A stretch of DNA of 64,000 nucleotides from Halorussus halophilus (GTDB lineage: Archaea > Halobacteriota > Halobacteria > Halobacteriales > Haladaptataceae). This document shows positions 55,967-57,520 of this stretch, piece after piece. The notes below the pieces were generated by a model that did not search any database, was not told where the DNA came from, and was given only the letters and a program-made list of their open reading frames with translations. The translations under genes were made by a program, and so were the position numbers. The stretch is from the NCBI RefSeq assembly GCF_008831545.1, contig NZ_CP044523.1:3410001-3474000 (forward strand), read 5' to 3'. Position 1 is the stretch's first letter. Every line of letters begins with the position of its first letter.

Positions 55967-57253
55967 TTACTGCTCACCTTGCTCGTCGTCGCTGTCCTGC
56001 TTGCCGTTTCCATCCGCGAGCAGTTCGGCCTTCTTCGCCTCGCCCTTCGCCGCGACTTCGTTTGCGAGGCGCGACTGGAAGCCGTGGTACTTCGCCACGC
56101 CCGTCGCGTCGGCCTGCTCGATGCCGTCCACCGTCTCGGTGTTGAAGGAGGCGGCCGACTCGGAGTACACCGCGTACTCGCTCTCGCGGGCGACCGGACG
56201 GGCCTGCCCGCCCTCGAACTTGACCGTGACGGTGCCAGTGACCTTCTCCTGCGTGGCGTCTACGAACCCATCCAGCGCGCCCACGAGTGGTGCGGAGATG
56301 AGACCCTGATACGCCTTCTCGGCCCATTTTTGGTCGATTTGTTTCTTGAACGAGCGTTCTTCCTCGGTCAGCACGAGGCCTTCCAGTGCCTCGTGGGCGT
56401 TCAGCAGGGTCGTCGCCGCGGGGTGTTCGTAGTTCTCGCGCACCTTCAGACCGAGCATGCGGTCTTCCATCATGTCGGTGCGCCCGACGCCGTGACTTCC
56501 GGCGAGTTCGTTGAGTTCTTCGACCAGTTCGACGGCGTCTTTCTCTTCCCCATCGAGTGCCTTCGGGACGCCGTCCTCGAAGGTGATTTCGAGTAGTTCG
56601 GTCTCTTGTTGGCCAGGGGCGTCGGTCAGTTCGTAGATGTCTTCGGGGGGAACGTAGCCGGGGTCTTCCAGGTTCGCGCCTTCGACCGAGCGACTCCAGA
56701 TGTTCGTGTCGATGCTCCAGTCGCCCTCGTTGCCGCCCTCGACGGGGAGGTCCTTCTCGTCGGCGTACTCCATCTCCCACTCGCGGGTGAGACCGAGTTC
56801 GCGGACGGGCGCGATGACTTCGAGGTCGGACTCGCGCCAGACGGCCTCGAAGCGCAGTTGGTCGTTGCCTTTGCCGGTGCAACCGTGCGCGATGGCCGCG
56901 CAGTCGTTCTCTTCCGCGACTTCCAGAATCGCCTCGGCGATGACCGGGCGGGCGAGCGCGGTGCCGAGCGGGTAGCCCTGATACGTCGCGTTTGCCTTCA
57001 CCGAGTCGAGGCAGAGTTGCGCGAACTCGGCTTTGGCGTCTACGACGTAGTGTTCGAGACCGAGCGCATCGGCGGTTTCCTCTGCCTCTTCGAACTCGGC
57101 CTCGGGTTGGCCTACGTCAACGGTGACGCCGATTACTTCGTCGTGACCGTACTCCTCTTCGAGGAGCGGGACGCAGACTGTCGTGTCGAGGCCGCCGGAG
57201 AAGGCGAGCGCTACTTTCGAATTTGCTTCCGTGCTTGGTGTCGTACTCGTCAT
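55967..57253 (-). CDS. argG: Argininosuccinate synthase
   Basis: ArgG joins citrulline and aspartate with ATP. The 428-residue protein has the N-type ATP loop ALAFSGGLDTTVCVP near residue 15 and AIAHGCTGKGNDQLRFE near 115. A polar, D/Q-rich tail of about 30 residues follows the fold. It has no TATA box directly upstream; the nearest good promoter is at 57515-57520, before the Arg-rich leader ORF, leaving a leader of about 235 nt. Confidence 0.96.
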   Translation of the reverse strand: MTSTTPSTEANSKVALAFSGGLDTTVCVPLLEEEYGHDEVIGVTVDVGQPEAEFEEAEETADALGLEHYVVDAKAEFAQLCLDSVKANATYQGYPLGTALARPVIAEAILEVAEENDCAAIAHGCTGKGNDQLRFEAVWRESDLEVIAPVRELGLTREWEMEYADEKDLPVEGGNEGDWSIDTNIWSRSVEGANLEDPGYVPPEDIYELTDAPGQQETELLEITFEDGVPKALDGEEKDAVELVEELNELAGSHGVGRTDMMEDRMLGLKVRENYEHPAATTLLNAHEALEGLVLTEEERSFKKQIDQKWAEKAYQGLISAPLVGALDGFVDATQEKVTGTVTVKFEGGQARPVARESEYAVYSESAASFNTETVDGIEQADATGVAKYHGFQSRLANEVAAKGEAKKAELLADGNGKQDSDDEQGEQ

Positions 57254-57389
57254 GGTTGTCTTGATTTGTCGGGTGGTGTCAGCTGTCGTGTCTGACCGGA
57301 ACGTCGTATCTGGCAGGGTTGGGTAGTTCGCAGACGATACGCGTGGCGTCGGCGGCGAAAGTCGTCAGAACGATGGAATTGGTATTAGT

Positions 57390-57406
57390 GGGGCTAGAAA
57401 GGCCCC
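57390..57406 (-). promoter_or_regulatory. Hairpin overlapping the leader-peptide stop
   Basis: The minus strand carries GGGGC-CTTTCTA-GCCCC, a 5-bp GC stem that begins one codon after the three arginine codons and spans the TAG stop. A ribosome paused at those codons would mask it, so it may act as a switch. Confidence 0.45.
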
Positions 57407-57489
57407 GGTCGTCGTCGCGGCGAGAAGGAGCCAGACCCGTCGCTCTCCATAGCGGAGGCGACCATCGTGGTCAGACGGGTCTGCGTCAT
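57394..57489 (-). CDS. Candidate arginine leader peptide upstream of argGH
   Basis: A 31-residue ORF begins at ATG 57489 and ends at TAG 57394. GGAGGT lies 4 nt before the ATG (57494-57499) and TTTAAA at 57515-57520. The peptide contains four arginines, and its end reads SPRRRPGPF, with the three consecutive arginines all encoded by CGA, a codon that looks uncommon in this window. It is the first ORF of the argG transcript, about 140 bp before argG. Amino-acid-rich leader peptides act in bacterial attenuation; in archaea this would be unusual. A conserved microprotein with its own role is the alternative. Confidence 0.6.
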   Translation of the reverse strand: MTQTRLTTMVASAMESDGSGSFSPRRRPGPF

Positions 57490-57514
57490 TACTACCTCCT
57501 TGTGACGCGAGGGG

Positions 57515-57520
57515 TTTAAA
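57515..57520 (-). promoter_or_regulatory. TATA box of the leader-argGH transcript
   Basis: TTTAAA is centred 28 bp from the leader ATG. Transcription would start at about 57490-57493, so the Shine-Dalgarno sequence may be only partly included. Confidence 0.6.

Follow-up and report, generated by a model that had tools for sequence, protein, structure and literature searches.

An arginine-codon leader upstream of haloarchaeal argG with the anatomy of a putative attenuator

The argG gene of Halorussus halophilus is preceded by a short open reading frame (ORF) whose last codons include a run of rare arginine codons next to a small hairpin. This arrangement is best explained as a leader-peptide attenuator that senses arginine and acts in cis on argGH, an explanation to which we assign a probability of about three in four in the absence of expression, ribosome-profiling or 3'-end data. 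The explanation is based on the anatomy of the leader, its conservation, reading frame, codon bias and covariation, and on the occurrence of the same device at ilvB. Translation of the leader, ribosome stalling, the direction of control, the response to arginine, and the termination of transcription as the output are inferred. Judged from comparative sequence data alone, the leader is real, conserved, and very probably functional. If the inferred function is correct, the argG leader would work like a bacterial amino-acid attenuator and would be new in Archaea; no reports of archaeal amino-acid attenuators (arginine, ilvB, leader peptide) were found in the openly licensed literature.

Layout and promoters of the argG leader

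The window analyzed here is a 64,000-nucleotide stretch of the H. halophilus genome. The argG locus lies on its minus strand and contains the following features, listed in the direction of transcription.

57515 to 57520, minus strand: TATA box TTTAAA of the leader promoter, identified in the sequence, with the same spacing to the leader ATG over 84 loci
57494 to 57499, minus strand: GGAGGT motif, probably at or upstream of the transcription start
57394 to 57489, minus strand: leader ORF of 31 codons, MTQTRLTTMVASAMESDGSGSFSPRRRPGPF followed by a stop, from the ORF list and the sequence, with a counterpart at 88 of 88 haloarchaeal argG loci
57432 to 57483, minus strand: hairpin I inside the ORF, 10 bp, with the arms CAGACCCGTC (57474-57483) and GACGGGTCTG (57432-57441), from RNA folds and an arm-mixing test
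57409 to 57417, minus strand: putative regulatory Arg codons CGA CGA CGA, from the CGA share at the leader end compared with argG
57390 to 57406, minus strand: hairpin II, GGGGC (57402-57406), loop CTTTCTA and GCCCC (57390-57394), with TAG at the edge of the loop and the 3' arm, from the sequence and covariation
57372 to 57389, minus strand: G-less tract ACTAATACCAATTCCATC, 18 nt, directly after hairpin II, from G-free runs compared with background
57254 to 57371, minus strand: untranslated stretch from the putative attenuator to argG, without a TATA-like word in its sequence
55967 to 57253, minus strand: argG, argininosuccinate synthase, the putatively regulated gene, an ORF that is the single-copy argG match in its own genome
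54503 to 55963, minus strand: argH from the ORF list, presumably argininosuccinate lyase, which follows argG in the operon; the name comes from position and sequence recognition, with no search behind it

The first-pass annotation had described a 31-codon ORF before argG with a CGA triplet, a PGPF end, and a TAG stop codon. The ORF is present on the minus strand at the same coordinates, and its C-terminus reads SP-RRR-PGPF before the stop (57394-57396). The TATA box upstream of the ORF and the 5-bp GC hairpin GGGGC/GCCCC at its stop were likewise found. No TATA-like words occur in the 141-nt spacer that separates the leader stop from the argG ATG (57253), in agreement with the earlier statement that argG lacks a nearby TATA box. 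Hairpin I and the G-less tract are two elements that the annotation did not contain.

The spacing between the TATA box and the leader ATG is 31 nt, with a 10-90% range of 30-33 (84 loci). Because of this spacing, the promoter points to a leaderless or near-leaderless leader transcript that would start at about the ATG. The GGAGGT motif, which had been put forward as a Shine-Dalgarno sequence, is probably not one, since the TATA spacing over the 84 loci places the start near the ATG and the motif is generally absent from the sequences of relatives that were inspected.

In addition to the leader promoter, 40 of the 79 named argG genes have a TATA box of their own about 32 nt before the argG start. 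At these loci the leader cannot be the whole control, and some argG mRNA bypasses it. No second promoter of this kind was found in the other half of the named argG genes or at the argG of the window; Haloarcula vallismortis (L103) is an example of a species with the leader and without the second promoter. Where present, the TATA box belonging to argG itself is of the GAATTTAATA type, positioned about 30-35 nt before the start (L040-L112), and is often accompanied by the upstream words GTAGCGTCCAGTATC or TATAGGCATCTCT, which may represent a regulator site.

Conservation, reading frame, and RNA structure

Eighty named argG loci from 84,980 species genomes, together with nine relatives, provided 88 usable upstream regions. 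The named loci are the best 80 of 124, and the sampling therefore leans to relatives of this argG. A short ORF with an Arg-rich end is located upstream of argG in all 88 haloarchaeal regions, with ends such as RRRPGR, RRPRRPGR, RRRAL, and RRRPAL, and a perfect stem is present near the leader stop in 84 of them. A strict signature, which requires four or more Arg among the final 12 codons plus a GC stem of 5 bp over the stop, occurs in 64 of 79 argG regions compared with 4 of 542 other genes of the same loci. By this comparison, the leader signature at argG is more than chance; the counts from argG loci are not independent, because the loci share descent.

An Arg-rich leader was also identified in 10 of 10 further haloarchaeal argG loci, taken from 80 genomes sampled across the phylum, and the leader is kept in the distant genera Haloferax, Haloarcula, Natrinema, and Halobacterium. 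In a search of 59 relatives at the peptide level, matches fell directly upstream of argG. A 52-position sequence model built from 61 sequences matches 56 of the 59 relatives, and the three without a match all belong to one deep lineage. In nearly all core genomes, the model matches best at a site immediately upstream of argG, and other matches score about 20 bits or lower. In essentially all core haloarchaeal families, the Arg codons, their frame, and the hairpin are kept while the rest of the leader varies, a comparison that could have overturned the first-pass annotation and did not. Palindromic repeat-like inserts lengthen the leader ORF, with the frame kept, to 57 codons in Halocatena pleomorpha (L053) and 87 codons in archaeon YIM A00010 (L047).

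Apart from two ORFs resembling chance, no Arg leader was detected in 19 argG loci of other classes. The leader was likewise not seen in six deep-branching genomes of the same order (G028, G044, G057, G036, G051, and G038; loci L250-L255). Since these deep-branching relatives lack it, the device probably arose within Halobacteria. In about 0.9 Mb comprising the argG loci and the window, the combined signature of hairpin, stop, G-less tract, and TATA box was not found at genes other than argG.

The last 14 codons of the leader contain three to seven Arg codons (84 loci). CGA accounts for 67% of the Arg codons in this part (n = 378) and for 12% in the rest of the leader; its share inside argG is 1.8% (n = 1435). 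The CGA bias at the leader end fits the theory that attenuators require a particular synonymous codon (PMC1183508). The reading frame was examined by placing the ATG solely by its distance from the TATA box and the Arg codon solely by its nearness to the hairpin, and the leader ATG and the Arg run share an uninterrupted frame in all 58 cases. The leader thus behaves like a translated, codon-reading ORF, with translation itself inferred.

The CGA run and hairpin II are separated by two bases in the window. In 84 of 84 loci, 1-5 nt separate the start of the last Arg codon from the 5' arm of hairpin II, so that a ribosome with CGA in its A site would cover this arm, and the first base of the stop codon is positioned within the loop in 80 of 84. 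Hairpin II is formed by perfect stems of 14 arm types. Among 28 sequences with equal loops, 21 have GC as the middle pair and seven have CG, which is a double compensatory change, and the covariation score of these sequences was matched by none of 500 shuffles. RNAalifold detected no pair in the mixed alignment, because loops of 3-8 nt misaligned the hairpins. The sequence of hairpin I differs among genera. The pairing score of its own arms is 24.3, compared with 19.4 for arms mixed between species (Wilcoxon p ~4e-10), a p-value that is indicative only, since the species are related.

The G-less tract is about 15-18 nt long, and a G-free run of at least 13 nt follows hairpin II in 86% of loci compared with 6% of background positions. 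A U-tract, which is the usual archaeal termination signal, was not found after hairpin II; the tract is composed of C, U, and A without a U-run. RNA folds did not reveal a consistent alternative pairing that could act as an antiterminator, and hairpins I and II fold together; this search was not exhaustive.

Leaders at ilvB, pheS, and trpS

The whole 4.45-Mb genome of H. halophilus was searched with patterns only. The pattern GGGG-N5-9-CCCC followed by 14 G-less bases occurs at two sites, one at argG and the other before ilvB (G000:C1:1648614-1648641). A control with the reversed pattern gives three sites, and the pattern of hairpin and tract alone is therefore no proof. The ilvB leader ORF of the same genome, MRQRTTAGRLRSVVSGVAVERVEIIVGA, ends in ..IIVGA, and its TGA is positioned within the loop of GTAGGGGC-TTGA-GCCCCTAC, with a G-less tract next to it (L285). 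The leader device is present in 22 of 30 ilvB loci (L272-L297). The rare codons ATT (31 of 43) and GTA (23 of 53) are found before the ilvB hairpin, and their shares in ilvB itself are 16% and 8%. No stems of the GGGCC type with the same device were found elsewhere in the H. halophilus genome. The logic common to argG and ilvB would be that rare codons for the amino acid of the operon are located beside a hairpin that can fold only in ribosome-free RNA.

A conserved leader ending in GFGFFFA(A/S) precedes pheS in most genera (L116-L143; L334 in H. halophilus) and has a different, longer downstream structure. An early CCGAACCCC in the pheS leader could base-pair with GGGGTTCGG over the first Phe codon. 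The motif WRW or RWRW occurs in a short leader before one type of trpS (L148, L150-L161), for example MESALRTWRWQTPGEPTVS in L150. The stop-loop hairpin was not seen at the pheS or trpS leaders, and no Trp leader was found before trpCBA.

In Haloferax volcanii, pheS and a trpS are reported to have long 5' UTRs that contain upstream ORFs of 26 and 23 codons (PMC4983044). These ORFs resemble the leaders described here: they are short, archaeal, located in long 5' UTRs whose transcription starts have been mapped, and belong to amino-acid-related genes. The relatives analyzed here have Phe and Trp leaders; it is not established that these are the same ORFs. In contrast to the present analysis, the table of that study gives lengths and isoelectric points only, without an attenuator interpretation, and argG is not among the 16 uORF-bearing long 5' UTRs that it lists for H. 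volcanii (PMC4983044).

Proposed mechanism and alternatives

In the proposed mechanism, transcription would start at or adjoining the leader ATG, and a ribosome would trail the RNA polymerase on the leaderless message. Attenuation requires close coupling of translation and transcription. When Arg-tRNA is scarce, the ribosome would stall in the rare CGA run, which ends 1-5 nt short of the 5' arm of hairpin II, and the ribosome's footprint over the arm would prevent the hairpin from forming, so that argG would be transcribed. When Arg-tRNA is ample, the ribosome would run to the stop codon in the hairpin loop and depart. Hairpin II could then fold ahead of the G-less tract and cut off either transcription or access to the downstream message. 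Termination might be achieved either by the polymerase itself with the aid of the hairpin or via the factor FttA/aCPSF1, which has been proposed as a competitor of coupled ribosomes (PMC8116511). It is possible, as a speculation, that hairpin I slows the polymerase or the first ribosome.

The interpretation of the leader as ribosome-mediated attenuation, suggested in the first-pass annotation by analogy with bacteria, is supported by the kept Arg codons, frame, and hairpin and by the ilvB leader; the layout is not that of the bacterial trp attenuator, as neither a U-tract nor an antiterminator was seen. Membership in the bacterial trp type was rejected after the U-tract had been tested for and found absent. 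Like the bacterial trp, his, leu, and ilv attenuators, the argG leader has a short ORF behind a promoter, a run of preferentially rare codons for the amino acid that is produced, and a hairpin downstream. The differences are that it is archaeal, with predicted leaderless initiation, that its regulatory codons adjoin a single hairpin that holds the stop codon within its loop, that no antiterminator pairing was found, and that the G-less tract replaces the U-tract. The ilvB-II motif of the Corynebacterium ilvBNC leader also contains a conserved uORF with branched-chain codons before ilvB and has two stems and one motif per genome (PMC10272879). However, it is bacterial, has a U-rich intrinsic terminator and a predicted antiterminator, and has no homology to the haloarchaeal leader as far as seen. 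The missing U-tract, the failure of the folds to reveal a consistent antiterminator, the 40 of 79 argG genes with their own TATA box, and the absence of argG from the uORF table (PMC4983044) count against the attenuator.

Of the alternatives, the one that survives best is unlikely but not negligible. It retains the sensor and changes the output: the ribosome would govern the translation or stability of the argG message rather than termination, and hairpin II would act as a site of processing or a barrier to translation. The absence of a U-tract behind hairpin II agrees with such an output, as does the long untranslated stretch, without an evident ribosome-binding site, in the argG message from the leader promoter. 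However, hairpins are able to terminate transcription in H. volcanii, where a hairpin inserted into a reporter ended 59% of the transcripts in vivo (PMC7237163). Furthermore, the leader showed no conserved pairing with the argG start, and at loci with a second promoter argG can start leaderless downstream of the device.

It is improbable that the leader is a stand-alone small gene or an attenuated RNA that acts in trans through its peptide or the RNA itself, as has been described for the trp leader of Sinorhizobium (PMC7298713). The retention of the leader at the 40 of 79 loci where argG has its own promoter could be explained in this way, whereas the position of the leader, always 90-220 nt upstream of argG in the 88 regions, counts against it. 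In addition, the Arg codons are kept while the remaining peptide is not, and the corresponding leader at ilvB carries that operon's amino acids.

In the fungal arginine attenuator peptide (arg-2 / CPA1 uORF), a conserved peptide sequence senses arginine. The haloarchaeal leader is similar to it as a uORF tied to arginine supply before an arginine-biosynthesis gene, and its nascent chain would end in a distinctive run of Arg followed by Pro-Gly, as might be expected of an arrest peptide binding arginine within the ribosome. Nevertheless, this explanation is scarcely credible: the haloarchaeal leader keeps only the Arg codons near its end, its N-terminal peptide is not conserved, and its length ranges from 22 to 87 aa (88 regions). 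The residues after the Arg run vary with the hairpin arm (PGR, PGF, RAL, or PAL), the rare-codon bias points to tRNA sensing, and the ilvB device carries Ile/Val instead of Arg. A pure RNA element (a riboswitch or protein site), in which the ORF and Arg codons would be by-products of the CGACGACGACC motif, could explain the strong conservation of CGACGACGACCGGG at the nucleotide level and is just as implausible, given the 58 of 58 leaders that are open and in frame with an independently placed ATG, the synonymous CGA/CGG variation, the survival of the frame through the large inserts in Halocatena pleomorpha and YIM A00010, and the lack of an Rfam match up to E 10.

The arginine-sensing attenuator remains the preferred explanation of the argG leader. 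The chances appear evenly divided for a wider proposal, in which core Halobacteria would use codon-run leader attenuators in general, with Arg codons at argG, Ile/Val codons at ilvB, and probably Phe codons at pheS and Trp codons at one trpS. These attenuators would act on a terminator unlike known ones, namely a short GC hairpin whose loop contains the stop codon, followed by a G-less C/U/A tract and switched by the stalled ribosome itself without an antiterminator. Whether archaea regulate genes by attenuation is an open question on which the argG leader bears. The conserved codon-specific leaders at argG, ilvB, pheS, and one trpS, found in tractable haloarchaea, would make archaeal coupling and regulated termination directly testable. 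If the interpretation is true, the attenuator would provide repressor-free control of arginine and branched-chain amino acid synthesis and would be a natural reporter of aminoacyl-tRNA supply.
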